DNA of 34,634 nt from the NCBI GenBank assembly GCA_900128565.1, contig LT635951.1, positions 1 to 34,634 of the forward strand, read 5' to 3'. Positions 1,542 through 30,168 of this stretch are shown piece by piece; the first letter of the stretch is position 1; each line of letters begins with the position of its first letter. Both the position numbers and the translations under genes were made by a program. The notes under the pieces were generated by a model. The model did no database searches. It saw only the letters and a list, made by a program, of their open reading frames with translations, and was not told the DNA's origin. The DNA is from Stramenopiles sp. TOSAG23-6. Its lineage: Eukaryota; Sar.

Positions 1542-4500
1542 ATGAAGTTAATACTTCAAATTCTAGGCACAGATAATGGTGATTCTAACCCATGCTTGCT
1601 TGCACAGTACAATGATCGTAAATACGTATTTAACTGTGGCGAAGGCTTCCAGCGATTTTGCTTTGAACACACCATTCGTTTAAAAGGTAAACTTGAAGCT
1701 GTTTTCGTTGATAAAATTGACTGGAAGTCAGTCGGTGGATTAACTGGTTTACTTTTGACTCTTTCCGATGCAGGGTCTGATTCTATTAGTATATGTGGAC
1801 CTATTGGTATTGGGAATTTATTATATGCAACCCGCCAATTTTTCCGACGAGATCGTCTAAGCTTAAAACTGACAGAGTTCAGTGATGAATCCACTTCGTA
1901 TGACGATGGTTCTCTCAAGGTAGTACCAATAAGGATTATTAGAAACAGTTCTAGCTCTATTAAATTACCAAAACTTTCCAAACAACAACTCTCTTGTATT
2001 GCCAATGTGAAAATTGTTGATAGGAAAGCGGATCATAAAAAGTTACCCAAGTCAACAATAGATCGTTGTGGAGGTGGTTTGCCTGCTTTTTCTTCTAGTG
2101 GTTCTGTTTCGCCTGCTGCTTTAGATCACTGTGGAGGTGGACCTGCTAGAAAGGAAATGGGTGGTTCAGTTGTTTCATACATGTGTCATCCATCATCTCC
2201 ACCTGGAAAGTTCTTTCCGAAAAAGGCTTTAGCGTTAGGTGTTCCTCGTGGTCCAATGTTTGGTCAGTTAGTGAAAGGTAAAACAATTACTCTACCGTGT
2301 GGTCGAGTTGTTAAACCTGAAGACTGCGTTGCTGAAAAAGTCTCAAGCCCAATTTTTGGAATGATTAGTTGTCCGTCAAAAGTATGGATTCCATTTCTTG
2401 TAAATCATTCTGGATTTGACCCTTATTTTATAGATTCTAGAAATGTTTTCGATCCAAAATTATCTAAAGTGAAAGAACATGTTGAGTGTTTAGTTCATAG
2501 CGCTCCTTTTTCAGTTGTTTCAGATATACGGTATAAGCGTTGGATGCTTCGTTTTGGGACTAAAGTGCAACACATATTTATAAATAGTGAGACATCTTCC
2601 CAGCGTTTTACCTTTGATGCTAGTAGTATAGCACAAGATATACTTCATGAGGTCAATCCCACAGTATTTCCTATTTTATTTCATAAAAAAAACCCAAATC
2701 ACCAAATTCGAAATTCAAAGTGGAATGTAAAAGTCAAACCTGCTCAACAATTACTTGTGTATAATTTACTCCCTGTAAAGAGTGTTGGGTTTGACTATTC
2801 TTATATTGAAGCTCGGGCAAACAAAATACAGAATCGAAAGAAACGTTACAGAACTAATGTTTTTACAAATAACAAAGTAATGAAAACAATATTGACTAAT
2901 CTCAACAACGAAATTCGTAACATTCTTCAAAATATGACAAAAACAAAACAAAATGTGCGCGATAATGATACAGTTGTTATTTCTGCTGTACATGTATGTT
3001 TTTTTTTTCAATTTCGAATTTTTTTTTTCATACGAAATTTCGTACCTAACAAAAACAAAACAAAAAAAATATTTTTTCACAATACATGATCCCGTGAAAA
3101 CGTCACGTAATAATCTTTTGAAAACGTCACGTAATAGACTTAGTGTCGATGCTTTGGAATTGGGTAGAGAACAATGTATATGTACGTTATATCCATTTAC
3201 ATTTTAATTTTTTTTGTTTTTTTTTGGTAGTAAATTTCGTACCTTACAAATGTTTTGAGTAAAAACAATATTTTTTCACAATATATCATCTCGAGATGTT
3301 AGTATTTCTTTCCTTGGTACTGGATCTGCGATTCCAACAAAATTACGCAATGTTAGTGCCATCTACATGGCGTTTGACTCTCATTTTCTTCAAGCTACTG
3401 GTGCTGTACCTGCTTCTTCAAGTGGGTTCTTAATGGATTGTGGTGAAGGTACATATGGACAATTATTACGCCTTGTAGGCCCAACAAAAATAGAAAAAAC
3501 TTTGGCTGAAATTCAGTGTATTTATATTTCTCATATGCATGCTGATCATAATCTTGGTATAGTTCGTATCCTCAGTGAACGTCCTGAGGGACAAGATGAA
3601 ATCACTGGCGTGGAGATTGAACCTGTACTTGTTATTGGTCCTTCAAATCTTCATAGATGGCTCTTGGAATATCAAGAAATCAATTCATCCATTGTCGGTA
3701 AGTGGACCTTTGTAAGAAATAGAGATATAATGACACCCAATAATTGTGCTGGTGCTGAACTTGCACGACGATGTGGCATAAATATTTTCAATATACGCGT
3801 GTTTCACCCTGCTGATGCATATGGCCTCATTGTTACAGCTTCTGGTGGTGTTCCTCGTACGCTAGGATGGAAAATTGTTTATTCTGGAGATACACGCCCA
3901 TGTGATGCACTTATAAGAGCTGGTCAAGGTGCAACATTGTTGATTCACGAAGCTACTCTTGAAGATGGTATGGAAGTTGAAGCAAGAGCAAAAATGCATT
4001 CTACAGTATCTGAAGCATTAGGCGTTTCACGTCGGATGAATGCATTTCGCACAATACTAACTCATTTTTCAGCGAGATATCCAAATGTACCCCCTCCTAC
4101 TTCCAATAGTAATACTATAAGGTACCAAGTTGGAACGCCAACTTTTGCAATAGGATTACAAGGTAATATAAATACACAAACTGCATGTTGTATACCAAAT
4201 AGATCTGCAACTAATATTGAAACGAAAGATATTGCAATGAATAATACAAAAATTAAAATTAATAATATTGAAACGAAAGATATTGCAATGAATAATACAA
4301 AAATTCAATTTAAAACTAACTCGGTAACGCCTTCAGTAAATACGACAGCTTGGCGTCCTTGTTCATATGCAATGAGTACTGATTTCATGAGAGTTTCATT
4401 TGAAAATTTGTTGTGGTTACCAAAACTCCTTCCTGTTATGCGAAGCCTTTATCAAAGTATGAATGGACTGGATGATGATGATGCCAAAGAAGAAGAAGAA

Positions 4501-4656
4501 TTAGTACTCGATGCTGCTCTTGGCCGAACTCGTGGTTCTACAAGCAACCGAGAGGATTTAAAGAGAAAAAATATTGACAGAGGCATCCCCATTATTTCTA
4601 CGGATTGTCTTAGTAATAAGAAAAATACAAATGATTTCAAAAGAAAAAAATTATAG
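1542..4656 (+). CDS. ELAC2: Long-form tRNase Z (3' tRNA processing endonuclease)
   Basis: Exons 1542-2993, 3088-3181 and 3287-4656 give 971 aa, close to the usual size of long RNase Z. The enzyme cuts the 3' trailer from pre-tRNAs in the nucleus and/or mitochondrion. The N-terminal half carries the degenerate metallo-lactamase domain (LQILGTDNGDSNPCLL, FNCGEGFQRF, VGGLTGLLLTL). The C-terminal half has the active domain: FLGTGSAIPTKLRNVS (PxKxRN motif), LMDCGEGTYGQLLR, the metal-binding SHMHADHNLG, GDTRPCDALI, HEATLEDG and LTHFSARY. Two introner-type introns lie in the linker between the halves and must be removed to join them in frame. The first ATG is used. The C-terminal part also holds a two-copy 17-residue repeat. 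Compartment cannot be told from the sequence. Confidence 0.95.
2994..3087 (+). mobile_element. Introner 1 (94 nt, phase 0) in tRNase Z
   Basis: Starts GTATGTTTT, has the perfect palindrome TACGAAATTTCGTA followed by CCTAAC, and ends TTTTTTCACAATA-CAT. The exon before it ends in CAT, so the flanks form a 3-bp direct repeat (TACATG if extended). It contains no AG dinucleotide. Removal joins the frame ...AVH to DPVKTS. The length is not a multiple of three, so the gene needs its excision. Confidence 0.9.
3182..3286 (+). mobile_element. Introner 2 (105 nt, phase 1) in tRNase Z
   Basis: Starts GTACGT, has a degenerate core (TAGTAAATTTCGTACCTTAC), and ends TTTTTTCACAATA-TAT. The preceding exon ends TAT, an exact 3-bp repeat. 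It contains in-frame stops, so it must be removed. An internal TTTTGAG (ending at 3259) could serve as a conventional 3' splice site that also keeps the frame, so this copy alone does not prove a non-AG end. Confidence 0.75.
4213..4305 (+). repeat. Two-copy 51-bp tandem repeat inside tRNase Z
   Basis: A 42-nt block (AATATTGAAACGAAAGATAT...) is repeated identically with a period of 51 bp, at 4213 and 4264. It encodes NIETKDIAMNNTKI twice. It lies between the HFSARY motif and the C-terminal part of the enzyme, so it is probably a surface loop expansion. Confidence 0.9.
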
Positions 4657-4772: not shown

Positions 4773-7700
4773 TTATGTCGCTTCATCATCGGAATAGTAT
4801 AATTCAAACTCAATGGTGTGATCTCTTTCTTCATGCCCACATGCTGCACATTTGCCATTACGTTTTGGATCAGCGAGAAATTCATCACAAATACAGAGAC
4901 AACAACCATAAACTACACTTTGTTTTTCTTCCACTTCAGTTGCACCAGAACCGTCGCCAAACATACCTGCAAGACGATCTCGTTTTCGATTCATTATTTC
5001 TCGTACAAGTTCCCTTTTTCGTTCCATTTCTTTCAATTTCTTCTCTGTTCGTCTATCTTCCATTACAGCGAGTAACTTTCCCATTGCGCCTGGCTTTTTT
5101 GGGCCTTCTCCAGGCTTTATAGGTTCAGGAAAGTTTTCTCTCAAATACTCTATCGCTAATTCAATTTTATTACGAGATATCATCAGAGATTTCTTTGACT
5201 GCTCTTTTGTGTAACCCATATCCATTAATTGACTACATTCAGAACTTAAACCCAATCGATTCAGTTTCTTTTTTGTATTTGCAATTTTCTCTTTCGTTCG
5301 TAGACGAATCTCCTCTCCAGGTGTCATTTTTCCAGCAACATGCGAAGCAATGCGTTTAGCTTTCGCGGCTTTTAATTTCATTTTCCGTTTCTTAATGGTA
5401 AGTGTATTTCGATATGGTTTTTCTTCTTCTCTTACAAACCACAGCAAAAACTCTTCAAATGAAATTTCACCATTTCCGTCATAGTCAATTTGTTCAAATG
5501 CTAAATCGACTTGACGTTCCATATATGGTTCGCAGAGCTCTTTGTTTAGTAAATGAGTCAAGTTTTTACGACTAACACCACCTTGACCAGGGGGGGGGGG
5601 GCTTAGGCCAGGGATGCCCTTTATGTTTTACTCTCTTTTTACTTTCTTCTTTCTCTCTTTTAGCTACAAATGCTGCGATATAGGCCTCGATCTCTCGAAG
5701 ACCAGTTGCCCTTTGTTTTACCATTTTTTTCAATAATGGAATTTCATAGGTAACACTAGTGCACATTGATTTTTGAAAGTCTAATTCATCATCAGAAAGA
5801 TCGTCAGGATTATCTTCAAGAGATTCAAGCTTTAATTCGTCAGTATTTCGAATCTCCACAAGATAATCAGAGGGTACAATAATATCAACATACTTTGAAA
5901 ATGACTTTGCAAATTTAGACCTCAATACATCCATTCGATAAGGATTTTCCATTTGTTTCTTCCCGGTCTTTTGGTTTGTAAAAATAAACTGTTTCTTGTC
6001 ATTGTCCCAATTCTGAGTCCACCAATTACCACGACTCTCAAACTCATAATCATCCTTGTAGTACGATGGATCAAGTTTACCAGCATTCCATGCTGGCATT
6101 AAGAATTTCTGAAATGCTTCCTTCATTTTTTCTTGATTTGTTGCATACATATCAATATCTATGTCATGGCGCTCTTTTGCATAACGTACCAACGCGTCCT
6201 TTCTATTGGAGTAATCAACAATACGAAGTCGAAATGCTTGAGTTCCAGAAACAAGAGGTCGAGGATGAAGATATCGCCATTCAACCCCTTCCATCATTTC
6301 ACCGCTATCACATTTAACATTAAAAAGACCATCACCAACAACAGACGCAATTCGACCAGCAATATCTATTTCATATTCAGAATTTATTACTCTAACGCCA
6401 GTCTTAATCCTTGCAAATGAACGCAAAGCAGCCGATTTTCGAACGGCGTCGCTTGCTACACGTAACCCTTTATCCAATAATAACTTCCGTTTGAATGCCC
6501 GAGTCAATATAGATTTGTTATTGTTTTCCACTGAAGTTGTAACGAACCATTCTACAAATTCGTCAAAGCCAATCTCTCCGTTACCATCAGTGTCCATTTC
6601 TTTCATCGCTTCCTTTGCTTGCTCAGTGGTTATAGGCTCACACAATTCTTTGCGAAGCATAAATATTAATTCTCTTTGGTCAATAAAGCCTGAGTCATCT
6701 TTGTCGTAGAAATCAAAAATATCTTTCAACTTTTCTTTGTATTCTTCTACATTATCTTCATGTTTCTTCTTTTTTTCTTCGCGATTGTGTAACATTCTCC
6801 ATGTTAGCCAGCCTTTTGACTTTGCCAATTTATTAGCGTAATCTGAATATGCTTGTATCAATTGTTTTTTAGATAAACTTTTACGGCTTTCGTAAAGTCC
6901 TCCTAATGCAGCACGCTTTTGATGTTGCATACATTCTTCACTCTGTGTCGAAGCATCGATTTCATGCCAATTGTGGTACAAACGATTACCTTTTCTGTGA
7001 GATCGAACGTAGCAATCAACACAAAGATTGACATCACAATCTTCACAATTGCGAATTGCACGAGATGTTTCACAATTCGAACAAAGCAATGCTCCAGAAG
7101 TCATCGCATCAATTTGAATGCGAGTTGAGAAGTGACCAGCGCGATTACCAGTACGATGACGCTCAGCAAGACAATTTGAACAAAATGGAATAGCACAATC
7201 TATACAATGCCAACCAGCAATGACACAGTTTGTAGTATGATCGGAACAATTCGAACATAATAAAGCGTCAGGATACTCTGCAGGGTTTAATGTTGTATCC
7301 GTTTGCGTAAGATCAACAGTCTCCTTCTGCTCTGGAAGCTTTTCAGGTTCTCGATACTCTTCGTGTGGATTTTTCCAACTTGATTCTTGTGTAACTGTAT
7401 TATACCAATAATAAGATTGCTCTGTTTGATCCCAACACTCACGCCATTGGTCCTTTTCAACTCCACTGTCGTTATTTTTCTCAATCAAGCCTTCAGCTCG
7501 CAGTTTTCGACGGTGTTCAAGAATTGCTTTCAGAAAGAAACGCCGGCCTCTGATACCTCTATATTTTCTTTGTAATTCTGAAGCACACTTTGAGGGCTCA
7601 ACTTTCGCCTGTGCCATTGCTTCTTTAACCCACGACGTGAGCTCTTTTGCATTCCACGCCCCTTTAAATGGTTTACAAACTCTAGACCAAGGACCGACAT

Positions 7701-10700
7701 CTGGTGCTCGCCTACCTCGCCAAAATATACAAACCCCAGGATACGAGGATATACCCATTGCTTGTCCAATGGTTTGCGGGGGTTCATTAATTGGATCTAC
7801 TGCATCAAACTTATTACTAACAAGGAGTTCATCTCCTGGCTCCCATTTTTGTTTATCCCAACAAGAGCGACACAGGAAATGATCAGGGGCTCCCTGCTGG
7901 CGTCTAAATGGAACACCAGTTGCTCGACATTCCCAGCATCGAGCAACCTTCGTTATAGTTCCATTGATACGAACATAACGACAACCTTCTTTCCAAACTC
8001 TCATGGAACCTTTTGTACACATGTCTTGTGCACTTTTTGAAAAGGCTTGGGTTTCAGAATCTTCTAGTTTTGCACCCGGTTCTTGAAGCATCCAAAACAT
8101 AATTACAAGGAATTCATGTTGTGCTGCTAATGCACCCAACCCCCTTGGTGTTGTAGCCTCGAGAATTTTCGCACCCGATAGAATTTCAGATACATAATTA
8201 AAGTGCACCTTCTGTTTCATCTCTGCAAACATTTGTATTCCCTTTTTGCGTCGAAATGCAGCTTGAACGCGAGTCGCCATAGGAGTTTTCAAGCGCTCAA
8301 GACATAAATCAAAAAGCATCTTTTGCCATTTCTGGAACATTGCAAATTTCATTGCTTCTTGTGACCGAACATTAGCATATTTTTCTATAGCTCTCCAACG
8401 ACCTGCTTCAAATAAATTTCGTTGAAGAATCCGAATACCACGTCTCTGTTTCCATTTCTTTAATTGTGCACTAGAAATTGCAAATTCTGCAGTTTGCCAA
8501 ATTCGTATTGCTTCCAACCATGCTCTCCATGCAATTGTGTATTTTGTGGAACAAAATTTATATGCCCGGGATTTGACACGCTTTCTTGTTAAACGATATT
8601 GTTGCCAGCGTACAAATGTCTGGAATTTTAATTTCCCGTGCCACAGAAGCAATGCTCTACGAAGTTTGTCCCTTTCAAGCTGCATTATACGCACAAATGT
8701 TTTCCAACGCCAAATTATTCGAAGACGCATCATACGCAATCCTGCTGCATAAGCTTTATACTTGCGATGCTGTTGCCATACAAACTGTCGCCAACGATGA
8801 AGACGAAATCCAAGTAAAAATAAATGTCGTCTTCGAAGCTGCATATTTGCAACTGTATTTTGTATACGCCAAACTCTCGCATTTAGTTTTAAACTCGACC
8901 AGACTTGTCTTTTAAGACGTACCTCATGGAAAATGATACTTAAATAGTCATCATGCCATGCAGCGACTTGCCACTTCACAAACTGTAAGCGTGGTTTGGG
9001 GGGATCTCGATCGGTACGCAGCCCATTAGAATCATAAGTTCTCAGAGGCCACATTTCAGATCCAAGTCGATGCCCAGCAACTGGATAAATGAGCTCACGA
9101 GCACGTCGGCCACGCCATTGTCGGCGCTCTTGCTGCCAATGCATTCTTGCAAGCCATTGTCTATATACTCTATTTTTTTTCATATGCATCCAAAATGCAA
9201 GTGCTTTGCGAATCAATTTTATACGGTGTATATATTCACACCAAACTCGCCATTTCCCATATAACTGCCGCATTCGCCACATACGCATTGCTTCACGTAA
9301 GCGCTGACGCCGCCATGATATAAGCGCTTGTACAACAGCACACCATTCTCTTAAAACTGGTCGAAGTATTCTTCTTCGATGTCGACGCCATTTCCAAAGC
9401 ATTTTTCGCATTCTGCGTCGTTGCCGATGATGTCTCCAGAAACGCTGTATTTTTAGTGTAGCTGGTCCTTCATGAATCAGCTTGTATCTCCACCATTCTC
9501 GAGTTAGAATACCTCGGACAACTGCTTGAATACGTATAGCAGCGGCTCTTTGTGCAGAAAGTCTTATATATTCATGTCTAGCCAACATTCCCCGGAAGTG
9601 AGTTTGTATAAGAATGGCAGCTTGAATAAAAACATTCTGTAAACGTCTAACAGTTTCTTCAATACGCAAACGCAAATCCTTTCTTCGGCTAAATCGTTGT
9701 AGTGTGATCACAGCAACAAGTTTTTGAGCTTCAAGCATTNCTTTCAACATTGCTTGCATTGCTGCCTTGCGCATCCAATGCTCCTTATAATGCGCATACG
9801 CCGATCCAATTTTGTATTGTGCGACTAAGCGTTCTGCGTCCGAAACTGCTTTCATCGCACTTTCTAATGAAGCTAATGCGCGCCGATCGCACAGGTCTCT
9901 ATAAAGTCTTCGTGTGACCATACCACGAACCCGTCTTTGAATTGCCCGTGCAGCTTTGTTCTTTCGCGCCATTTCAATTAGCCAAGCTAATTTATATTTT
10001 TCATAAGCAATACGCCCGATGCGACCACGCCATACCCTTTGGACCCATCTTGCACAGTGATGCCGTTTCGCTTCCCTTGCAATGACACGCCCTTGACGAC
10101 CTCGCTCAAGACGTTGCAAATCAATTGCTGCATTATTACGCCGGAGATGTTTCCATATAATATAGTATCGGAAGTTTTTCTGAATTAAAGCCGCCGCATT
10201 TTTCTTTTGTTGAAATATCATCATTGCTTTAATACGCATTGCAAAGCGAACTTCATAGAATGCTCGCATTGCGCGTACTATTACAACAGCTGCTTCATTC
10301 TGCCGTTTTTCAACCCAATCTTGATAAATTCTTTTCCATACACCAAAACCCCATTTAAGAAAACGAAAATACCTTTTACGAAATCGTATAAAAAGATGTT
10401 GAGCCGCCCACCACATTTTAAACTGGTCTTGGTGACTCCTGGAAGCATTTTCTCGCTCATAAGTTGTATGATGTACCCAAATTTCCCATACCCATCGCAT
10501 TATTCTCCATTGATATCTATCTAACATTGTATCTATTAATATAATACCTCGCTCCCAAAGTATGGAATACTGTTGGTGCTGTAATAGTATATATGTTGGA
10601 ACATCTTTACTCATTTCAATGGTTAAATCGTGTATGAAGGTATCAGCATTCTTTGCATCATGTCTGGCAGTTTCTATATCGTCAACACTAAAACCTTTTT

Positions 10701-12087
10701 GATAGAAGGATTTGGTTTGATCAATTTTGGGTTTCCATTTTCTATTTCTATTTTTATTAACTATTTTTGTCTTTTTTACATTTTTACTCTTTCTACTTAT
10801 TTGTTTAGATGATTTATTTAATTTCTTATTCTTTGAACGTTTTCTTTTTGACGTTGATTTATACACTTTCATTATTGAAGTTTGTTCACTTGTCATTTGC
10901 ATTCCCATAATTTCACCGCTTTCAAAACGAGCCCTTGCTTCAGCGACCATAATCCTTCCCTTTTCTGCTCTTTTAGCTTCAGTTAACAGCGCTTTACGTG
11001 CTTCTTCAATGATCTGTTGCTCTGCTCTGGAAGTTTTTGGTCTTGTTCGAGAGCGCGATCTTGATCGCCGTCTCCGAGACCTTTCTCGAGACCTTTCTCT
11101 ACTTCGACTTTGTATTAGTTTATTGTTTTGTTTATCAGTAGAAATGTTTTTGAGACCATCGTCGCGTTTTTGATTATCATCACGTTCATTGTTTTGTTGT
11201 TGTTCTAGGGTATGTGCATTTGATTGTGATGTTCCATATAAACGTTCTTGTAATAATTTTTGTTCAGATAAAGCTTCTGCAAGCAAAGTAGCCGCAGGAC
11301 TTGCATGCATTGTTCGTTTCAGAGACACATTTTGTTCATAATCTACGACACCAACCTCCTTATTCTCATCAAAATCTCGCACATCTGTTGAATTTATGGA
11401 AAGTTTTGACCGTGATGTACCAATTCGTGTTGATATTGGACGTGAAAATGATTCAAGACGAGACGATACAGGACGTAGGGAGTGAGATGTACCAACGCGT
11501 GAACAAGGACCTAAACGTGTAGATAACGATTGTTCTTTTGTCGAATGAGTAAAACTAGCAAGTACACGAGAAGAATTTGGACGAAAGAAACTATCACCGT
11601 CTGTTAACGAATATGGAGGGAGTGGAACACCACTCAATGTGCGATAGGGATTTGAATGAGCTGTAGACGCTCGCGACTTTGGTTCTAGTGGATTTTTCGG
11701 TTCGGCAATTTCAGCAACCTGTGCCGCAGAAAGTGGTCGCATTCGAGACTCAGCTTCAAATTGTAGAAACTCACTATTATTCATTTCATATTTAGGAGAT
11801 TCAGCAATTACTTGCGACTTTGGTGGACTTTTACTCCGACGTTTTATTGGGGAAGTACTTCCAGTGACGTCTTCATATACCCGTGCTATGGTTTGAATCT
11901 TTTTATGCTGCTCAGAACTATGTCTTCTATTTGTTTTTTTCTTCGACCTAGAACCTAATAGGGGCAGCGGATAGAGCCCAGTAATGTCTGGATCTACACC
12001 AGCTGGCATTTCTGGTCGTAATGAGTTGTACGCAGCTTTTTCTTCTTGTGTTGCCTCTTGAACTAGATCACCAGCAAAGAAAAACAT
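4773..12087 (-). CDS. Giant IQ-motif/WW/B-box/EF-hand/UBA protein, frame broken at a C12 run
   Basis: The frame is open from 12087 to a stop near 5572 (2,171 codons). It continues in another frame to 4773 if the poly-C run at 5590-5601 has 11 rather than 12 bases, which gives about 2,437 aa. Approximate order by residue: RS-rich basic stretch (330-350); a long helical, Trp/Arg-rich region with IQ motifs near 719, 859, 1274 and 1512 (for example AAAIRIQAVVRGILTREWW), expected to bind calmodulin; a CxxC zinc ribbon near 1380; a WW domain near 1562; two B-box-like zinc fingers (1605-1709); an EF-hand pair (1789-1850) with DKDDSGFIDQRE and DTDGNGEIGFDE; and a second WW-like segment near 2022. After the run come another EF-hand (DYDGNGEISFEE), a UBA-like domain (LMDMGYTKEQSKKSL) and a Cys-rich tail. 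A Ca-regulated scaffold, possibly axonemal, is inferred. One codon is unknown because of the N at 9740. Confidence 0.8.
5590..5601 (-). other. C12 homopolymer that splits the giant gene
   Basis: On the coding strand twelve Cs encode the proline run in WPKPPPP. As written, the frame stops soon after at WSRWC. With one C fewer the frame continues GQGGVSRKNLTHLL into the EF-hand and UBA part. That downstream part has no ATG at its beginning, which argues that it is not a separate gene. A sequencing or assembly length error is most likely. Confidence 0.75.
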
Positions 12088-13435: not shown

Positions 13436-15692
13436 ATGGAACGATGGAATGAAAAGTGGGACAATTTACAGACTAGTTCGGACGAAGACGAACGAAGTAG
13501 CGCAGATGTAAGCAAAAATTCATTTGATAGAAAAAAGAGAGATGTTGTTTCCAGAGATAGTGTAAAGTCGTACGAACCCAGATTGAATTCGTTTGACTTG
13601 ATGAGACAAGCTATTGTTGGTGACGCTCACTCGGAAGCGCAATTGCGCACGCTAGGAAACAAATCTTTTAAAGATGGTGCAACGGCTAAAGCCGAAGGCT
13701 ATTATTCACAGGCGATTGAAAAAGCTTTGAAAAGAAGGGAAAAAAAAGTGTCTGAAAAACCAAAAATTCCTTTAGTGATGCCGTCCAACCTGGAAAGCGT
13801 AAATCCAGAGACTAGAGCTGCACTGGAGTCACTCGAAGAAGAGTTAATTGAAATAGAAAAATCTAAACTAGACCCAAACGAAACAATTCAGAAATTGTAT
13901 AATAATAGATCTATCGTACGTTATAAATTAGGAAAATTTGCAAAGTCTGTTAGGGATGCTCGAGCTGCGTCAAATATTCAAAAAGACTGGGTAAAAGCAT
14001 ATTGGAGAGAGGCGTTGGCTAGCTCTGCACTTGAACGTTATGATGATGCCATCAAAGCTTATAAAAAAGCTCTTAAATATGATCCTGGTAGTATTCGTTT
14101 AAAGAAAGAGCTTGAGTCTACTATATTTAAAAAATTCCGTAAAAGTACAAAGAAAAGTAAACAAATTAGTAGACAAAATTTGAAAGTTTTACGTCATAAT
14201 TCAACAGAAAAAGTTATCAATAAAAAGAGTCATAATAAAAATACTGACGAAACAAATGATATTAATGAAATAACAGATAATACGAATAAAATTCGTAAGA
14301 AAGCTCGTGACGAAGCAGCTAACGTATTGCTCGAAGCAATTAACGAAAAAGCAAGTGAGGAGGAAGCAGATAAAAAAGCTGCTAAAGATCTCGAAATACG
14401 CCAATCTCTTCTTTTACAAAAGATAGCAAGAGAAAAGCAAGATTCAAGTAACATGAAAAATGATGCAAGCATATCCGGATTACGGAAAGGTTTTTTGAAT
14501 CGATTGGACTCTGCTCAAAATGGTCAAAATTGTGAAAAAGTAGATACCTATAAGAATAGTAAAAAAAAATTGTTAGGTACGAAATGTCCTACGAAAAAAA
14601 AAAGTGAAAACAAACCAGTAAAAATGTTACTGCACCCACAAATACCAGTATCGAAAAATACAATAGAATTATTAGATATTATATCTGCTTTGGCATGGGC
14701 ACCCAAGGGAGGTACAAATATTGCCGGTGCTGCCGCTGCTTTATGCCATCAAGTAGTCCGCAAGGAAAAAGTATGTTTTCATGATTTCAATTTTGAATTT
14801 ATTTATCTTCATTGAAAATTTCGTACCTAACAAAAAAAAATACAAAAAAAAAATATTTTTTACAATACAACGTGGAAAGCAGTTTTTTCTTTATTTAGCA
14901 TATGATCACGGTAATCAAGTTGTTAAACCTGAAGAGTATGATTTAACTGCAAAATCTCCACGTGCAAGCCAAGTCTTATTTTGTCGTGTTTTATCAATGT
15001 ATGATGGAAATGCTGTAAATACAGCAGCATTATTAGCTTTGCATTCATTGTTATATCATTCAGTAGAAAAAAATACGAAAAAAGTAAACATGCCGGTTCG
15101 ACTTCTGCATCGTGGTAAAGAAGTAGTTGACTATGGGCTTTGTTGTGGTTATCTGAAAGGTATTGAACAACTTGTTCTTGTTTCTTCTTGGGAGGGAATC
15201 CCTGAATCTAAATGGGAAATGGAGAAACAAAATCTTGAACAACACGAGTGGATTTATTTCCGTCTCAATTCAGGACAAATTTATTTTTTAGATTTTTCAG
15301 CTGAACAGTTTGGTGAAACTCCTCTTTTGATTCCCCATGCGAAGAATGTTGATGATTTTGTACATTGCATTTCATCCGCAAATAAATTTGCACCAGCAGG
15401 CGCACCTGCTAATATTTCAGTGCCTATTTTGTTTTGTAAAGCGGAAGCTGCAAAAGTTAGGTATGAAATTGAGAGAAATATTGATAAAACAGCCATAGCA
15501 ATGAGAGTAAGAATAGCTGAAAATGCGAGCGAAGATTCGCTACAAATTAAAGTAGAAAAAAATATGAATCTTGAGGAAGAAGTGAAACTTGCAAGGAAGA
15601 TGTCTGCAGTGCATATTATTAAGTTATTTTTACAGTCATTTAAGCCAAAATTGATTCAATCCTTTCCATATATTCATAAAAGCATTAATTAG
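13436..15692 (+). CDS. TPR-repeat protein with a conserved-looking C-terminal region
   Basis: Exons 13436-14770 and 14871-15692 encode 718 aa. The first ATG gives MERWNEKWDNLQ. About three tetratricopeptide repeats occupy residues 65-220: GNKSFKDGATAKAEGYYSQA begins the first, and KAYWREALASSALERYDDA and AIKAYKKALKYDPGSI belong to the last; the first helix pair contains a charged insert. A lysine-rich linker follows, partly made from an antisense introner relic (14527-14617). The second half (ALAWAPKGGTNIAGAAAA, then FFLYLAYDHGNQVV and VLFCRVLSMYDGNAVNTAAL) is globular but not recognised. TPRs usually bind Hsp90/Hsp70 tails or complex partners, so a co-chaperone-like role is possible but unproven. 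An introner sits at the start of the second half. Confidence 0.85.
14527..14617 (-). mobile_element. Antisense introner relic translated as part of the TPR protein
   Basis: Read on the minus strand, this stretch has the introner order: GTTTGTTTTCAC, a T10 tract, CGTAGGACATTTCGTACCTAAC, a T-rich stretch, then CTTTTTCACAATTTTG. Its spacing and length (about 91 nt) match the ten introners. It lies in reverse orientation to the gene, is open in the gene's frame and encodes the lysine-rich linker (KKKLLGTKCPTKKKSE). It seems to be an insertion that cannot be spliced and was kept as protein sequence. Confidence 0.65.
14771..14870 (+). mobile_element. Introner 3 (100 nt, phase 0) in the TPR gene
   Basis: Starts GTATGTTTTC, has core TTGAAAATTTCGTACCTAAC, and ends ATTTTTTACAATA-CAA. 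The preceding exon ends AAA, so two of three flank bases match. No AG occurs inside. The length is not a multiple of three; removal joins VVRKEK to RGKQFFLYLAYD. Confidence 0.85.
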
Positions 15693-16937: not shown

Positions 16938-18484
16938 ATGCAACTTGTTTATATAGTATGTGTATTTTATGCTACTGTCTCTACGATACAAACAGTTCAT
17001 GCGATGAGATGGGTTTTAAAAAAGTCATTAAAGTTAAAGTGTGAAAGAGTGGGAATCCAAGGTGACAACAATTTTCGAAGTTGTTCAGCTTGTGCTAAAA
17101 ATTATGGATGCGGTTGGTGTGAAGTGGGTACAATATTTAATGGCAATCCTCTTGGTTCAAGTAAAATTTTTCCTAATAAGCATCAGTGTATTTCTCTAAA
17201 AGATGAATGTATCGGAACTCTATTTCACCGGGGACTCTGTCATGAACCACGAAAAATAAGACGTGAAAAGTGGTTGGAAGTAAGTGAAACCAACCGTCGA
17301 ATCAACGGAGATGAAAAGTATCGCAACTACTTGGATGTATGGGAAATTGAAAAGATAAGTGAAGCACAAATATCACGAGATACATCACGTTCAGGTGTTA
17401 AAGGTAACCAAATAATCAATTTAGGAAATGTTTTGAAAGCATATGCTGTATATGATAAAGAAGTCAAATATCAACAAGGAATGTATGCTTTCATCATTTT
17501 TAAAATTTAAAATTTTAATTTGTTTTTCATCGAAAATTTCATACCTAATTAATTTCAAACTTTAAGACATATGTTTTCACAATATATGTATGTTTTATTT
17601 TTTTTCAATTTCGATTGTTTTTTCGTACGAAATTTTGTACCTAACAATTTTTTTTTTGAAATATTTTTCACAATATATGAATCTAATAGCAGGAATGTTT
17701 TTGAAACTGAATATGAATGAAGAAGAAGCATTTTGGATGCTTGTGTCTGTGATGCAAAATGATAAGTATTATCTTAAAAATTTGTTTCTCAATGACCCTA
17801 AAAAAATGACACACAGATTGTATATTTTTATCATCAATTCCGAATTTATTTTTTTTCGAACTCAAAAGGTTTCGCATCTAACATTTGTTTTCTAAAAATA
17901 TTTTTCCACAATATTTAAATGATATAAATAAAATGTTAAATTTTGTCAGGAGAGAATTTTTACATAATTTTATTGATCCTGTACATCATGAAACGTTGGA
18001 AAAAAATCATGACGAGTTAATGTACGTTTTCACCATTAATTTCAAATTTATTTGTTTTACTAAGAAAATTTCGTACCTAACGATGTTTTTACTAAAAAAC
18101 AAAAATATTTTTTCACAAAACATGATGTTGGAACAGTCTAGATGTATCCAATGGATGGAAAGTGTATTTATTGTATCTTTTAGAACATATTTATTACATC
18201 ATATATGGGATTTTCTACTCACTGATGATGAGAATACTATGGAGCATAACTTATTGCTAGTTATTGGATCCTTCTATCATCTCGCCCTGAAGCATTCCTT
18301 TGAAAAATTTCATAATATAACACCTGACCAAGTTGAACAGGTAATGTCCACTTGGATACCTAATCAAGTTACTTTGGAACAACTGAATGAAGCTTTGTAT
18401 GAAAGAAAATCAACGTATATACAAGTTACAGAAACTAATATTATTGCAGAAGCTGAAACAAAGTCTGACATTGAGAGATATTGA
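16938..18484 (+). CDS. PSI-like domain plus TBC Rab-GAP domain protein
   Basis: Five exon segments bounded by four introners (16938-17482, then 17679-17819, 17917-18021 and 18124-18484, with two abutting introners in the first gap) give 383 aa. The TBC domain activates Rab GTP hydrolysis; both catalytic fingers are visible, ISRDTSR (arginine finger, IxxDxxR) and YQQGMNLIAG (glutamine finger), then EEEAFWMLV and HHIWDFLL. The glutamine-finger motif is only complete after the double introner is removed. Unexpectedly, the N terminus looks like a signal peptide (residues 1-22, MQLVYIVCVFYATVSTIQ) followed by a Cys-rich PSI-like module (CERVG, SCSACAKNYGCGWC, CISLKDEC). That would normally be lumenal, whereas TBC domains act in the cytosol. 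No membrane segment separates them. Confidence 0.85.
17483..17587 (+). mobile_element. Introner 4 (105 nt), first of an abutting pair
   Basis: Starts GTATGCTTTC after exon ...GGAAT, has core TCGAAAATTTCATACCTAATT, and ends TTTTCACAATA-TAT. Two of three flank bases match (AAT/TAT). The base after its end is the first base of introner 5. Phase 2. Confidence 0.8.
17588..17678 (+). mobile_element. Introner 5 (91 nt), second of an abutting pair
   Basis: Starts GTATGTTTTATTTTT, has core TACGAAATTTTGTACCTAAC, and ends TATTTTTCACAATA-TAT. The TAT just before it is the end of introner 4, an exact 3-bp duplication, so this copy probably inserted into the 3' edge of its neighbour. No AG inside. Removing both joins GGAAT to GAATCTA, restoring QGMNLIAG. 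Confidence 0.88.
17820..17916 (+). mobile_element. Introner 6 (97 nt, phase 2) in the TBC gene
   Basis: Starts GTATATTTTT, has a decayed core (AAAAGGTTTCGCATCTAAC), and ends TATTTTTCCACAATA-TTT. The exon before it ends ATT (two of three match). Removal joins KKMTHR to LNDINKML. This is one of the most diverged copies. Confidence 0.75.
18022..18123 (+). mobile_element. Introner 7 (102 nt, phase 2) in the TBC gene
   Basis: Starts GTACGTTTTC, has core AAGAAAATTTCGTACCTAAC, and ends TTTTTTCACAAAA-CAT; the exon ends AAT. The length is a multiple of three and there is no in-frame stop, so retention would add 34 residues rather than break the protein. Removal joins HDELM to MLEQSRCIQW. Confidence 0.78.
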
Positions 18485-18782: not shown

Positions 18783-19283
18783 TTAATAACCGTCTCCACT
18801 TGAATAGCCACCGCCTCCACCATAATAGCCACCGCCCCCACTTGAACCACCATAATAGCCACCGCCTCCACTTGAACCACCGTAATAGCCACCGCCTCCA
18901 TTTGAACCACCGTAATAGCCACCGCCTCCACTAGAACCACTGTAATAGCCACCGCCTCCACTTGAACCACCATAATAGCCACCGCCTCCACTTGAATCTC
19001 CGTTGTAGCCACCATTTCCACTTGAACTATGACCCTTGCTCCCACTTGATCCATTGTTTCCAATAGAACCTCCGGAGCCTTTACTTTTCCCGCAGTTTGA
19101 TGATGAATTCCAATGAGGAACCTTACCGGCGTTCATATTTCTCGCCGCAGCACTTTGAGCTCGAGCAGCAAAAGATCCTTTCTCAATTCTACCGTTTCGA
19201 GCATATTCGTTTGACATTACGCGACGTGCAGCTTCTCCGTCAAATAGATGTGGTTTAGGCATAATGGCAAATATTACAGGCAC
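18783..19283 (-). CDS. Gly/Tyr/Ser-rich repeat protein
   Basis: The gene encodes up to 166 aa. A second ATG at 19262 (MPKPHLFDGEAARRVM) is as good a start as the first. The N-terminal 60 residues are ordinary and Ala/Arg-containing (GSFAARAQSAAARNMNAG). The rest is a low-complexity tail of about seven GGGGYYGGSS decapeptides ending GGYSSGDGY. Such tails occur in glycine-rich RNA-binding proteins, cell-wall proteins and phase-separating proteins; no RNA-recognition motif or clear signal peptide is visible, so the role is open. Intronless. Confidence 0.65.
   Translation of the reverse strand: MPVIFAIMPKPHLFDGEAARRVMSNEYARNGRIEKGSFAARAQSAAARNMNAGKVPHWNSSSNCGKSKGSGGSIGNNGSSGSKGHSSSGNGGYNGDSSGGGGYYGGSSGGGGYYSGSSGGGGYYGGSNGGGGYYGGSSGGGGYYGGSSGGGGYYGGGGGYSSGDGY
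18801..19020 (-). repeat. 30-bp tandem repeat encoding GGGGYYGGSS
   Basis: About seven imperfect copies of a 30-bp unit (plus strand CCACTTGAACCACCATAATA...) lie in tandem within the Gly-rich gene. Copies differ mainly at silent or Ser/Asn positions. Confidence 0.9.
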
Positions 19284-19568: not shown

Positions 19569-21592
19569 TTAATTTTTAATAACATCATTCATGTTTCCTT
19601 TTACTAACGATTGAAAATCATCTACTCGTTTATTACTACCTATTAAAATTCGATTTGTCTCGGTATTTGATACATTTATATTCGTATCGTATGGCGAGAG
19701 TGAAATACTCTGAGGCCAAGAAGTAGACAGCATATATTTAACAATTTCAAATTGTATAGATTCTTGGGATTCTCCCCGAAAGGAGGCATTTGACAAATTT
19801 GAAATTACATCTGCACCAAATATCGTCCGTAACAAATCTCTATCTGAATTATATAATTTTTCCAAACTAATGTCAGAGAATGTAACATCTATACCAATAT
19901 TTACTGCAATCATACCCCATGGTTGAATTGTACTACGAGCAATTTCAAATATATTTTTATGTTTACATGGAAATTTTACATCATTTGTACCTAAAAAATA
20001 AATTGGCCACGAATCTTGGCTAAATACATCTATTAATACGGCATCAAATTTTTCTTGGGTACCATTCGCTATTCTTTTTGATGCTTTTCTTAGATATGAT
20101 AATCCATCATCATGTAATACATCTAACCCTTTTCCTTTGACTTCAAAGCAATGCTGTGCAGCCTCAATGACGGCCAGATTATGTATTTTGGAAAAATATT
20201 TCAAAATTTTTTTGTTAGGTACAGAATTTCGTACGAAAAAAAAAATCGAAATTAAAAGAAAATAAAACATTCATGCTCTACACAAGTAATATGTGCATTT
20301 GGATAATGACGTTGCAAAAATAAAGCAATTTGTCCACCTCCGATACCAAGTAATAAGAAACGCGGCGATTCACATTCATTTGATTCAAAATGAAAAGGTA
20401 AAAGAGATACCATCGTTTTCTGATACCAATTTTCTAATTTCGATCCTTTTGGATTTCGTGTATCCCATTCACTTTCACAAAAGTTGCCTTCAATGGGTGA
20501 TAAGTCAGGATTTATAGAACGGATTTTATTTGATGGTTGCTTTTGTTCTTTACGTTGAAGAGTTTCACCCCAATTCCAAACACCAAACTGAAGAACTCGA
20601 TAGTAATCACATTGTAAAACAATAACTGCTTCATTTTCTTTTGGTAATTTGTAGGTACAGTTTCCTGTATTTATTTTACCACTTGAGTAGCTAAATTGTC
20701 TATTTTTTCCAATATTAAAATATAGTATAGAAAAACCAGGAGATTTGAAATTCACTACATTTGAAAGTTGTCGCAAGGTTTCAAATTCTGCTGTGTCATA
20801 ATACCAACTTGGAATACAAATATTTTCTATACCATTTTCTATACCATTTTGTATACCATTTTCTATTCCATTTTGTATACTATTTTGTATACCATTTTCT
20901 ATACCATTTTCTATACAACCAACTTTAGTAGATTCAAATTGATCAGTTGTTGTAGATTCCACAGGAATACTCCCATATTTACCGAGTACTCGTAATGTCT
21001 CAAGTACATGATATTTTTCATACATAAAGATATCCTCTTTACTTCGCTCGTTTTGAATTAATAGTAATAAAGCTAAAACCGTATTACTTCCAACTACCTC
21101 AACCCCGGCTACAACGCCGCAAGAAAACACCAAATGATATATAGCAATAGCAGCATAAATACGAATGCAACAAGCTTCGATCATCGATATCTCAACTATA
21201 TTGGGTTGTAATTGACCGAAAGAATCAATACCAGTAGATAGAAGTACAGCCAGATGTCGCGCTGCACCAAGTTGCAAAGTTCTCTGTCCAACACTTCGAT
21301 ATGTCGCATCAACTGTAACAGTTTGAGGCACAAGTCTAAAATCGTGCTTGTGAGAAAGAACACCATTGAATGCAAAACACAAATTTCGCAAAGCTGTTAT
21401 TAAAAGCGTGGGATCACAAATCGAAAGTTGAGTGCACGCATAAGAAGCTGTACTCACACGAAACTGTGTGGTCTCGGTAATTTTCTTCCATGACTTACAC
21501 ACGCAACGTAACACTCGTGCAAGTTCCTCAGGACAAATCATACCAGGAAGCATGGTGAGAATCACTAGTGGGGTAGTTCTTTCCTTTGCCAT
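19569..21592 (-). CDS. Large protein with a C-terminal spermidine synthase/METTL13-like methyltransferase fold
   Basis: Exons 21592-20273 and 20180-19569 encode 643 aa. The N-terminal 400 residues are mostly helical and not recognised. A tract of alternating IENG/IQNG lies near residues 228-256. From about residue 420 a class I methyltransferase fold appears: LLLGIGGGQIALFLQ (nucleotide-binding loop), then HITCVEHNLAVIEAAQHCF (acidic strand 2, as in VELDPxVVExA), DDGLSYL and FDAVLIDVFSQD. The fold binds S-adenosylmethionine or its decarboxylated form, so the protein is either a lysine methyltransferase-like enzyme or an aminopropyltransferase relative. The introner interrupts the strand-2 motif itself. 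The start is the first ATG (MAKERTTPLV). Confidence 0.82.
20181..20272 (-). mobile_element. Introner 8 (92 nt, phase 0), GA start, in the methyltransferase gene
   Basis: On the minus strand it starts GAATGTTTTATTTTC where others have GTATGTTTT. It has core TACGAAATTCTGTACCTAAC and ends TATTTTTCCAAAATA-CAT. The exon ends CAT, an exact 3-bp repeat. No AG occurs inside. Removal gives VEHNLAVIEAA, which aligns without gaps to the family VELDPxVVExA pattern. Forcing a GT start one codon later gives VEHEYLAVIEAA, with one extra residue. Confidence 0.85.
20824..20913 (-). repeat. 12-bp tandem repeat encoding alternating IENG/IQNG
   Basis: About seven copies of TACCATTTTCTA-like 12-mers (plus strand) with C/G and C/T variants. 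The copies stay in frame, so length changes alter only the number of tetrapeptides. Confidence 0.9.
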
Positions 21593-22001: not shown

Positions 22002-23451
22002 ATGCCAAACTTTGAACTTGATGATGCAGATATGTTTGCTCGTTGGTTACTTGAACAAGGCATGCATTTAACAGCCCTTGAATTGCATCAGGAGTTACTA
22101 CTTAACCACCAAGCAAGTATACCTGTGCTCGAGTCGTTCATGCGCGGAGATGTTTTGGGTGATCATTTAAGCAAAGAGGTAAGAGCTGCATCAATAGATA
22201 GTATGATATTATCCACAAATACGAGTCCCTTTGAGCACGGCGGTATAATGGATATAATCCAGACTCGCGATGATAAAATAGCGTTGTTGGAATATGAATT
22301 GAGGTGTTCGCGGGAAGACCTCTCAGCCATGCGAGGTCGTGTTCGCGCGTTTTCTGAAGCAGCTTTAGATGGCACAGAATCATATATTAATAATAGAAAG
22401 GATAATACGGTACAACAATCCACAAATTACAAAAATCCATTTAGCAAAAGTCAAATTTCTAATAAAGTTTCTTCAGACTCGAAAAATCCTTTTTCTTCAC
22501 ACAACTCAAGTCAGTCTTCTGGTCAACATAGTGCTGATAATAAAGACATGACAAGACAAGAACGTAATATTCTTAATTGTATTGTTAAAAGGTACCTCGA
22601 GAACTCAGGCTATAAATTATCGTGTCTCACTTTTAGTGAAGAAGTAAATGATCAAGATTTAGATGATTTAGAGTCTTTAGGACTTTCAAGTGGAAATCGA
22701 GCTGATCTTGTGTCTTTATATAGAGGCAGAATAGACCCAATAAGAGATGCTTTATCTCTTCAAGTAGATCTCAACAGAGAAAGAAGATTATCCGCAAAAT
22801 TAAAAGCGTCATCGACTGCAGCCATCAACGAAGCAGAAGAATCTCGAGAATTTCATGCTAAACTTAGTAAAAAATTCCAAGTTATATTAGACGAAACCTC
22901 TCAGCACAAAGAAAAAATAGCGGAAATGACTAAACAGAATGAAAATTTGAAGGAAATGATCTCTTCATTACGGGATGAGTTAGATTTGGCACGTGTATGT
23001 TTTATAATGAATTTCTAATTTAATTGTTTTTTCATACGAAATTTCGTACCTAACGATTTTTTTTGAAATATTTTTTCACAATACATGTCTTCCTCTTGAA
23101 ATTTATAAAGACTTGACCTTGCCCTCAACTTGGTTAAAATGGTATCAGTTATGCACGAAATCTGAAAAGGTGACTATATTGGATATGATATGGCGTGAGT
23201 GTACTGCCGAAGAGCACAATTTCATCATTGTTGATCTCCAGGCATTTTTTAGTGTAACAGGGTCTACAAAAAAATCAGTTGTTCAAAGGAAAAACATGAA
23301 ATTGAAAAATCCAAAAGTTCTTTCAAAAAAAGAAGTTATCGTGCCATGCAGCAACCCTAACCCTAATCCAAAAGTTCTTTCAAAAAAAGAAGTTATCGTG
23401 CCATGCAGCAACCCTAAGGAGAAATCTAATAAAATTAACTCAAATAGATGA
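22002..23451 (+). CDS. RELCH: RELCH-like LisH-domain protein, short form
   Basis: Exons 22002-22992 and 23087-23451 encode 451 aa. RELCH links Rab11 recycling endosomes to the trans-Golgi in animals. The N terminus has a LisH motif (FARWLLEQGMHLTALELHQELL), matching the LLTALELHTELLE region of RELCH. A second one (VKRYLENSGYKLSCLTFSEE, then VNDQDLDD) matches its EYLKxxxYKLTSITFSDE region. Between them is a Ser/Asn-rich linker, and afterwards a coiled coil. The long C-terminal HEAT-repeat part of animal RELCH (over 1,100 aa in total) is absent: after the introner only about 120 residues remain, including a duplicated 19-residue segment. It is either a truly short form or a truncated gene. Confidence 0.75.
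22993..23086 (+). mobile_element. Introner 9 (94 nt) in the RELCH-like gene
   Basis: It carries GTATGTTTTATAATG, the perfect palindrome TACGAAATTTCGTA followed by CCTAAC, and ends ATTTTTTCACAATA-CAT. To keep the frame with that end it starts two bases earlier, GTGTATGT. Because GT is shared at both edges, 22995-23088 gives the same product. No AG inside. Removal joins LDLAR to LPLEIYKD. Confidence 0.82.
23311..23417 (+). repeat. 57-bp tandem duplication in the RELCH-like gene with CCCTAA at its edge
   Basis: A 50-nt block (CCAAAAGTTCTTTCAAAAAA...) recurs with a period of 57 bp and encodes NPKVLSKKEVIVPCSNP twice. The junction reads AACCCTAACCCTAATCC, resembling two telomeric CCCTAA units, and the second copy ends in one CCCTAA. 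Confidence 0.9.
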
Positions 23452-28413: not shown

Positions 28414-30168
28414 ATGTCTTCTGAAGTTCAAACTCCAATCTGCTCGAATACTTCTTGTCTCCACCAGTTGGTACTTCGAGATAACAATTCAAAAGTTGAA
28501 CCAAAGATCATTCATCTTCATAGTAGTGGGAAAAGTTCATTTAAAGTAAGTTATTGTTTTCATACAAATAATCATTTTTCTCCTTCATTCTTGTTTATCT
28601 TAAACTTTTTTTTATCTTCATTTGTTGTTACTTCGATTACACTTCGTTTCTGTACCTATTTTTTCAGATAATTTGTGTAACTTAACGAAGCAAGTAATTT
28701 TAAAAAAATTCATTCAATACAGCTTGGAAGGAGTCGGTCTTCAGCTGATGTTGTCTTTAGTTCTAAAGGAGGTCCCCTAATGATTTCTAGAGTTCACGCA
28801 ATACTTTCTCGGTCTAAAGCATCTGAAAAGATTTCCGAGAATAATACTTTAATTGGCAATAGTATCAACAGTTTAAATAGTAAATCATCACTGGAAGTTT
28901 CTAAGAGTACTGTATGGTGGAAGATTGAAGATAATAATAGTAGAAATGGTATGTTTGTCAACTCTATTAAGTTAGCTGAGGCGACTCTGTCTCATGGAGA
29001 CATAGTGACTTTTGGTGGGGGAGGCACTCTCCCTTACGGTACCCATAAAAACAACATTGAATCTGATTATCAGTATGTATTTTTAAAAGTTTGCTCTAAT
29101 CAAGATGAAGATAATATATCAACAAACGAATATAAGGAAAAGAATAGCAAGAAAAATATGTTTCAAAGAAATTCTTTCCCGACAACGGGCTCTTCAAGTC
29201 GTCGGAAGCGGCCACTTACTGAAAAGATTGATCTTTCCTCGAAGCGTCCTAGACTTGATACATCATGCATTGTTTCAAATACGATGAATATACATAAAAA
29301 ACATGAAATACCAATAACGAAGGAAGGTGATAACGCGATAGCTACAGGGATTTGCGGGGATGGAGTCTCACTAAATTCACAGAAAAATGTTGATTTATCA
29401 ACTAAAAGCACTGCATTAGTTCCTTTTTCTTCTGTGCTTCCCCAAGGTACTGTCAAAGTTAATTGTTTGCAAGAAGAATTGACGTGCCCGATATGTTTGG
29501 ATTATTTACTTCAAGCTCACACCCTAGGATGTGGTCATTCACTATGTATGCTTTCAAAATTGAATTTCAAATTTTTCAAATTTATTTATTTTCGTACCAA
29601 ATTTTGTACCTAACATTATTTTTTGGAAATATTTTTCCACAATATATGTGCTCCGTGTATTGTAAAAACGCTTGAAAACAAACGAGCTTGTCCTTGTTGT
29701 CGTGCACCAACAACCAAGCCACCTATACGTTCACGTGTTCTAGATAATGCAATTAACAAATTATTGAAACAAGAAGGATGCGAGTCAAAATATTCTGAGT
29801 ACCTACACCGATTAAAAAAATGGGAAAAAGATATCAGTTTGAGAAAAGCCCAAGCAAAACAATTGAAAAGAGTTATATGTAACGCAAAGCGAGAAGGAAA
29901 GCATTTCCTCTGTATCACTGATAAATGGACAAGTAATGAACAACAAGTTTTTCAAAAAGGTGTTGCTCTTTATCATGGTGTTGCTCGAGTTGTATACTGC
30001 AACACCACAAGTTTGACAGCAGAGTATATAGAAAGTGCTTCAAAAGAAGAATTAAAGCTCGCTAGTTTAAATGTCGGTGTGGTAAATAAGAAATCAGTAT
30101 CAACCTTAGATGCATCAACAATGCGATCATTGTTACACATGTTCAGATTATATGGTGGCCGTGAATAA
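28414..30168 (+). CDS. FHA-RING E3 ubiquitin ligase (RNF8/CHFR-like architecture)
   Basis: Exons 28414-28545, 28723-29545 and 29648-30168 encode 491 aa. The FHA domain, a phosphothreonine reader, covers about residues 30-140: the first intron is removed to give SFKLGRSRSSADVVF, then MISRVHAILSR and WWKIEDNNSRNGMFVNS. A basic Ser-rich linker follows (SSSRRKRPLTEKID). The C3HC4 RING at about residues 300-345 reads CPICLDYLLQAH, CGHSLCAPC and CPCCRAPTT; its fifth to eighth zinc ligands are contiguous only after the introner is removed. A coiled-coil-like region and an unrecognised domain end the protein. FHA-RING ligases act in the DNA damage response or mitotic checkpoints elsewhere; the specific role here is inferred. 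It has one conventional intron and one introner. Confidence 0.9.
28546..28722 (+). other. Conventional GT-AG intron (177 nt, phase 0)
   Basis: Begins GTAAGT, has a branch-point-like CTTAAC at about 28681 and ends CATTCAATACAG. Removal restores the FHA motif K-LGRSRSSADVV. It also contains TGTACCTATTTTTTCAG, reminiscent of the introner 3' half. It proves that the genome uses ordinary spliceosomal sites. Confidence 0.88.
29546..29647 (+). mobile_element. Introner 10 (102 nt, phase 1) inside the RING domain
   Basis: Starts GTATGCTTTC, has core TACCAAATTTTGTACCTAAC, and ends TATTTTTCCACAATA-TAT. The exon ends TAT, an exact 3-bp repeat (TATGT if extended). No AG inside. The RING zinc ligands CGHSLC-APC require exactly this removal (or an equivalent shift within the repeat), making it the best-fixed boundary of the family. 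Confidence 0.93.

Follow-up and report, generated by a model that had tools for sequence, protein, structure and literature searches.

The nearest known systems to the one described here are the introners (mobile introns) of Amoebophrya and the introns of Fritillaria. For Amoebophrya A25 and A120, the accessible text describes introners with direct repeats of 3 to 5 nt and inverted repeats of 8 to 20 nt; more than 60% of Amoebophrya introns lack GT-AG, U1 is given as undetected, and no clear splice-site signature is left (PMC7789003). In the tunicate Fritillaria borealis, the portion of the source available links non-canonical 3' ends to duplicated U2AF1 and U2AF2 and mentions introner transposons (PMC13326754). 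Furthermore, diplonemid non-canonical introns have, in the part of the source that we cite, ends joined through base pairing (PMC12621601), and the available text of Gozashti et al. (2022) presents a Chrysochromulina introner with a 5' splice site whose 3' site comes from a 4-bp target site duplication (PMC9860276). Here, we examined a 34,634-nt contig of the uncultured marine protist Stramenopiles sp. TOSAG23-6 (LT635951.1; the whole stretch is called the window), in which a sequence-only reading had pointed out introners that do not end in AG, and followed the family through the assembly holding the window (8.03 Mb, 408 contigs). Very probably, these introns are one introner family that has a relaxed 3' splice site, YNU, and is excised by the U2 spliceosome.

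Results

Ten related introns in six genes

The window contains ten related introns of 91 to 105 nt in six genes, nine on the plus strand and one on the minus strand, all in the sense orientation, just as the sequence-only reading had described them. The host genes, the introners, and an ordinary intron that serves as a control are as follows.

Host gene A, 1542..4656, plus strand, tRNase Z long form (Pfam PF13691, PF12706)
Introner 1, 2994..3087, plus strand, GTATGT..CACAATACAT, in host gene A (tRNase Z-like), no internal AG
Introner 2, 3182..3286, plus strand, GTACGT..CACAATATAT, in host gene A
Host gene B, 13436..15692, plus strand, TPR protein (Pfam)
Introner 3, 14771..14870, plus strand, GTATGT..TACAATACAA, in host gene B, duplication AA/AA
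Host gene C, 16938..18484, plus strand, RabGAP-TBC protein with four introners (Pfam PF00566, 5.3e-25, residues 117-301)
Introner 4, 17483..17587, plus strand, in host gene C, abuts introner 5
Introner 5, 17588..17678, plus strand, in host gene C, in tandem with introner 4
Introner 6, 17820..17916, plus strand, GTATAT..CACAATATTT, in host gene C, duplication TT/TT
Introner 7, 18022..18123, plus strand, GTACGT..CACAAAACAT, in host gene C
Host gene D, 22002..23451, plus strand, no Pfam match, presumably similar to a LisH/coiled-coil protein
Introner 8, 22995..23086, plus strand, in host gene D (coiled-coil-like)
Host gene E, 28414..30168, plus strand, FHA-RING protein (Pfam RING 7.5e-8, FHA 4.4e-10)
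Introner 9, 29546..29647, plus strand, inside the RING finger codons of host gene E
Host gene F, 19569..21592, minus strand, methyltransferase-like protein (PF05175, 4.2e-4, below the cut-off)
Introner 10, 20272-20181, minus strand, GAATGT..CAAAATACAT, in host gene F
Control, 28546..28722, plus strand, ordinary GTAAGT..CAG intron of host gene E; the FHA domain starts at its junction (residue 44)

None of the ten ends in AG, six have no AG anywhere, and the triplet after the 3' motif repeats the last three exon bases exactly in five copies and agrees with them at two of three positions in the remaining five; on each of these points the original description was accurate. Its shared motifs are more variable than it had them. 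The proposed common start, GTATGTTTT, opens only 4 of the 10 copies, one copy begins GAATGT, and the CACAATA motif is replaced in three copies by CACAAAA, CAAAATA, and TACAATA, once each.

Splicing at the called boundaries yields long open proteins in the six genes, with gene D needing one nucleotide less excised (introner 8, to 23085). The RabGAP-TBC domain match spans the introner junctions of gene C, and the TBC alignment runs without a gap at the junctions of the tandem pair (17483-17678) and of the copy at 17820. Similarly, the RING Pfam model covers the junction at 29546. Introners 4 and 5 lie head to tail with a common boundary, the sole such tandem among the 98 copies described below, and may be spliced as a single unit.

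The family across the assembly

The core pattern TACCTAAC..TTTCACAATA was found 435 times in the 8.03 Mb, compared with 0 matches for the reversed control, and the 3' motif TTTTTCACAATA was found 583 times, compared with 3. Thus, the genome search that the sequence-only reading had proposed did find further copies. These counts contain repeats because several contigs look palindromic (C2, C37, and C58) or, from their element positions, duplicated (C13/C14, C39/C81, and C64/C69), as in amplified single-cell DNA. Among viral contigs there were 0 matches to the core pattern, although records of this genome may be excluded from that search.

For the analyses of individual copies, we read about 0.30 Mb of sequence, the window among it, in stretches picked mostly for holding the motif. 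A total of 289 profile matches (E<=1) were reduced by a strict rule to 98 unique copies with both ends. A looser set of 125 copies contained CCAAAATA ends that were mis-registered by 2 nt; correcting these and filtering more strictly gave the 98 and dropped 27 copies, including both AG-ending ones. The most alike of the 98 copies are 96.6% identical and lie at different loci, so the near-identity claimed for the window holds genome-wide but not within the window itself, where the closest pair is 87% identical. Many similar copies at unrelated positions in unrelated genes, whether counted as 435 core matches or 98 unique full copies, are what is expected of introners.

The copies carry the signals of U2-type introns except at the 3' end. 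The 5' end is GTAYGT in 68 of 98 copies and starts with GT in 85, with GA or GC types in the remaining 13. The branch site TACCTAAC was present in 44 of the 60 copies of an earlier set, branch-like motifs lie 29 to 57 nt from the intron end, and a pyrimidine tract is present; a 3' AG is not. Minor (U12-type) introns start with ATATCC or GTATCC and have the branch site near the 3' end, and neither the usual GTAYGT start nor the branch distance of the introners fits that type. The palindromic core has no covariation support, and its right arm is nearly constant.

Ordinary introns and spliceosome components

A normal intron beside the introners, which the sequence-only reading had noted, is not an isolated case. 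All four ordinary introns traced are GT..AG, one in the FHA-RING gene and three in a Cpn60 gene on contig C380, where the three were seen by eye as GTAAGT..AG and a fourth 5' site is visible. AG splicing therefore operates in the same genome. Additionally, a 2021-aa open frame contains the PROCN domain of Prp8 (E=8.6e-231). A second, full-length Cpn60 is intronless (533-aa frame, G000:C330:6942-8420) and is possibly a bacterial contaminant.

Removal of the introners restores the reading frame

The reading frame on each side of a copy was determined from codon usage trained on long open reading frames. Two of the 98 copies are at a locus edge; of the other 96, 93 are sense and 3 are antisense. 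Once GTA..CACAATA plus 3 nt was removed, the two sides came back into frame in 72 of the 81 copies for which both frames were confident, and the frame-restoring copies fall in all three phases (35/19/18). In the earlier 60-copy set, the frame was restored in 47 of 50 and 59 of 60 were sense. Protein alignments agree: the proteins align without a gap at the junction in a CDPK-like kinase and at both junctions in ClpB. The claims of sense insertion in all phases and of precise excision thus extend from the window to the larger set, and the preserved frame is consistent with introners that would be removed from the mRNA. Retention in the mRNA was considered and rejected; it would add a stop or a frameshift in 68 of the 72.

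Restoration did not depend on an AT end. By 3' end, the frame was restored in 47 of 53 copies ending in AT, 10 of 12 in TT, 9 of 10 in GT, 4 of 4 in AC, 1 of 1 in GC, and 1 of 1 in AA, so TT- and GT-ending copies do as well as AT-ending ones. Copies free of AG number 45 of 98, and 30 of the 37 with confident frames restore the frame, as do 42 of 44 AG-containing copies.

A 2-bp target duplication and a 3' end that favors AT

The dinucleotide downstream of the 3' motif was AT in 68 of the 98 copies, TT in 13, GT in 11, AC in 4, GC in 1, AA in 1, and AG in none; AT is also the next dinucleotide in 310 of the 435 genome-wide copies. Just past the junction, 52 of 98 copies have a G. We compared these bases with those upstream of each copy. 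Position -2 upstream equals position +1 downstream in 72 copies, compared with 47.2 expected (p<=5e-5). The match at position -1 (84, compared with 81.9 expected) is uninformative because that base is mostly T, and the match at position -3 is barely above chance (32, compared with 26.7 expected; p=0.04). Together, a strong -2 and a marginal -3 indicate a duplication of two bases, with the preceding C or T belonging to the element. The duplication proposed earlier is therefore real and locus specific, but its unit is 2 bp (NT) and not 3 bp. A target site duplication is also a mark of miniature inverted-repeat transposable elements; no empty site was seen.

The upstream and downstream dinucleotides are identical in 63 copies, including the locus-specific pairs TT/TT (10), GT/GT (7), and AA/AA (1), and differ in 35. 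When the upstream dinucleotide is not AT (n=47), the downstream one matches it in 18 copies, is AT in 23, and is something else in 6; hence, 23 of the 35 mismatched copies have AT downstream. A variable upstream dinucleotide and a downstream one that converges on AT are as expected if the upstream copy is exonic and the downstream copy is the end of an intron that would prefer AT.

Next, we considered which of the two duplicates is exonic. In a MATE gene (L023:4788, minus strand), LEWWAFELL results if the upstream GT is kept and a stop if the downstream AT is, which shows, as far as the gene's coding sequence can, an upstream exonic duplicate and hence an intron running GT..AT. We then scored both choices with Pfam for five of the 18 mismatch copies then known. 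The upstream choice was favored by 2.4 bits in MATE (75.8 compared with 73.4, with X at the stop), and the scores for ClpB (56.4 and 56.3) and DUF5672 (31.4 and 31.1) were nearly equal. TMEM260 gave a tie, its junction being outside the matched stretch.

Public gene models and the link to MAST-3

The Cpn60 and ClpB proteins match EukProt GSMAST32 entries at 72 and 78% overall. By eye, the aligned blocks agree except where they border segments that the public models lack or have in addition; introns of this genome encode some of the added segments. These two observations indicate that GSMAST32 comes from the same species, and the dataset is probably the same one. From its label, GSMAST32 would be one of the MAST-3A and MAST-3F single-cell assemblies of Seeleuthner et al. 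(2018), whose accessible text states that MAST-3F had too few complete protein matches to train a gene finder (PMC5778133).

The public GSMAST32 ClpB model mis-splices both introners of the ClpB gene (L017, C24:1501-11500) and omits conserved exon sequence. Two introner-derived stretches remain in it: IIFSQY, which comes from the end of one introner, and VYVFISFFFFFFVRNS, which comes from the start of the other. IIFSQY is absent from 4 of 4 ClpB relatives (P0121, EukProt g4132.t1, 68% identical; P0123; P0126; P0142); at the second introner site, P0142 carries two additional residues and the other three align without insertion. Exon pieces are also missing from the Cpn60 model, P0022, which retains pieces of ordinary introns; not all model faults are therefore due to introners. 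Other GSMAST32 proteins may be affected by mis-splicing. No transcript of this species showing a junction was recognized among the best 120 matches listed.

Points against the proposed excision and alternative explanations

Several observations weigh against a family of U2-excised introners with a YNU acceptor. AG ends are rare rather than absent: the sequence-only reading was right about the window, but 16 of the 435 genome copies and 2 of the 125 in the looser set end in AG, and one of the latter, L072, restores the frame with its AG end. The AG-ending copies lie at 16 places (e.g., G000:C66:13791-13831 and L072) and represent either AG targets or copies turned canonical. In 9 of the 81 confident copies, including the one at window position 22995, the frame stays broken at the called boundary, and AG is absent from 7 of these 9; some of the exceptions have GA starts, which may be mis-called. 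The TBC alignment shows a gap beside the 18022 junction. The choice of exonic duplicate depends mainly on the single MATE stop codon, given that an HD domain favors the downstream duplicate by 1.0 (20.0 compared with 21.0), that the Pfam tally is three upstream (two by 0.3 or less), one tie, and one downstream, and that codon usage over 25 mismatch copies does not separate the duplicates (sum, 2.6). The terminal inverted repeat, at about 4 bp by eye (GTAT..ATAC), is weak as a sign of a DNA transposon; in the available text of Gozashti et al., such repeats count as clear at 6 or more nt (PMC9860276). Finally, U1 and U2 snRNA had no match in Rfam, a result made uninformative by control genomes that gave no match either, and U2AF1 had no match in a protein search run without a positive control.

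If ordinary AG sites in the element or the downstream exon were used, the AT boundary would be illusory. A total of 53 of 98 copies do hold an AG, a frame-keeping AG lies within 36 exonic nt in 29 of 72 and a usable internal AG in 4 of 72, and the GSMAST32 ClpB model splices inside one introner. However, the 45 AG-free copies offer no internal site, 43 of the 72 lack both a usable internal AG and a frame-keeping exonic one within that distance, and the spacing to the first AG of the exon does not clearly favor one frame (25, 16, and 19 of 60 at 0, 1, and 2 modulo 3). Exonic AGs would also remove conserved-domain codons, and the internal AG end would insert IIFSQY into ClpB, which all four relatives lack. 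We consider this use of AG sites very unlikely. It is likewise very improbable indeed that these are AT..AC introns with a boundary two bases upstream (NTGTAYGT..CACAATAC), removed by an altered or U12-type spliceosome. Both cuts would give identical mRNA in the 63 copies with exact duplication, leaving AC or AT as the invariant end, but the MATE copy requires the upstream GT in its mRNA. Moreover, the start is GTAYGT and not the U12 site ATATCCTT, the branch-like motifs are further from the end than in U12 introns, and 23 of the 35 mismatched copies have AT downstream and not upstream.

Removal of the elements from DNA, as with the internal eliminated sequences of ciliates, or assembly of a germline-like nucleus, would dispense with splicing altogether. 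The short repeats, 2-bp duplication, and precise removal resemble those sequences, but DNA excision does not predict 93 of 96 copies in the sense orientation, nor a sense strand that in most copies has consensus 5' splice and branch sites together with a U-rich tract. We know of no such rearrangement in stramenopiles and regard this explanation as scarcely credible. A less remote, though still unlikely, alternative concerns the movement of the family and not its removal: intron RNA may have spread by reverse splicing rather than as a DNA transposon, with the dinucleotide matches reflecting site choice. This would account for sense-only copies, the short terminal inverted repeat, and the 23 copies with AT downstream and another dinucleotide upstream. 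Flanks are also coding in 232 of 247 cases, compared with 6268 of 7711 windows overall (125-copy set, mis-registered ends included). Even so, the TT/TT, GT/GT, and AA/AA pairs fit target duplication and not reverse splicing, and this locus-specific duplication favors movement as DNA.

Other features of the window

The 5' part of an 18S rRNA gene, truncated by the contig start, occupies positions 1-564 on the minus strand; we take it to be stramenopile from its appearance by eye. A 2171-aa open frame lies at 5572-12087 on the minus strand, and no homologue came up at E<=0.001 when its first 500 residues were used in a protein search. The window also has tandem repeats in or beside coding sequence, all with periods that are multiples of three.

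18817-19027, period 30, 7 copies
20822-20916, period 12, 8 copies
4212-4313, period 51, 2 copies
23308-23417, period 57, 2 copies

Discussion

Taken together, the genome-wide counts, frame tests, and protein alignments support the introner reading with a non-AG 3' end. We propose that short, nonautonomous mobile elements insert in genes beside a T, often before G (target NT|G), and that insertion would duplicate two target bases. Each copy would supply a strong 5' splice site, GTAYGT, directly after the upstream NT, together with UACCUAAC as the branch site and a U-rich tract that ends in CACAAUAC. The second target dinucleotide would become the last two bases of the intron and so complete the acceptor. 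The U2 spliceosome could then excise GTAYGT..CACAATACNT exactly and leave the mRNA unchanged, with a 3' splice site that would be YNU, mostly CAU, instead of YAG. After insertion, the intronic dinucleotide would drift to AT, as if AT were the preferred acceptor. The element would have moved as DNA and be spliced as RNA by U2 machinery whose 3'-site reader may have changed, for example through a divergent U2AF1.

More broadly, we lean toward the view that the U2 spliceosome of this MAST-3 stramenopile recognizes, beside YAG, a further type of 3' site, YNU, with a preference for CAU; that hundreds of introners use it; and that the dinucleotide from the 2-bp duplication is selected toward AT, so that a whole class of introns would be acquiring a new code for the 3' splice site. 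Few splice signals are as conserved as the 3' AG, which gene finders generally take for granted. With the other signals in place and AG missing, a family of this kind isolates the 3'-site step and poses the question of which factor reads the acceptor and whether it can drift under a flood of mobile introns. AG-free introners would escape surveys that take GY-AG gene models as their basis, and mis-splicing may in part explain the gene counts of such single-cell genomes.

Introners as a kind are already known; the predicted acceptor appears new relative to the literature covered. We did not find the family described in the parts available to us of the literature on introners, non-canonical splicing, and stramenopile or MAST-3 genomes, a body that largely leaves out subscription journals and bioRxiv; the word "intron" is absent from the main text of PMC12614181 and PMC8163842. 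With Amoebophrya, as the accessible text describes it (PMC7789003), the family has in common that a marine protist carries non-canonical introns in many copies, that their boundaries show direct repeats, and that their spread is transposable-element-like. It differs in having an ordinary 5' site, branch site, and U-rich tract with a deviant 3' end, in its 2-bp duplication, and in belonging to a different supergroup, the two being compared by description. Inverted repeats of 8 to 20 nt joining the intron ends, as in Amoebophrya, are not seen here: between the first and last 35 nt of the 98 copies, the longest pairing run averages 7.4 nt, compared with 7.1 nt after shuffling. The introns of diplonemids, as far as the available text describes them, also lack GT-AG ends, but the ends of the introners pair no better than shuffled ones and the palindromic core is without covariation (PMC12621601).

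The introners of Gozashti et al., in the part of that paper available, are alike in that the element brings the 5' site and the 3' site is recruited through target duplication; they have GY/AG sites, whereas the dinucleotide recruited here is NT (PMC9860276). Fritillaria borealis, from the portion of the source cited, likewise has introns ending in AC or AT. Unlike in that tunicate, ordinary GT-AG introns coexist here and most introners still start with GT. Fritillaria nevertheless provides an example of a spliceosome that accepts other ends (PMC13326754).

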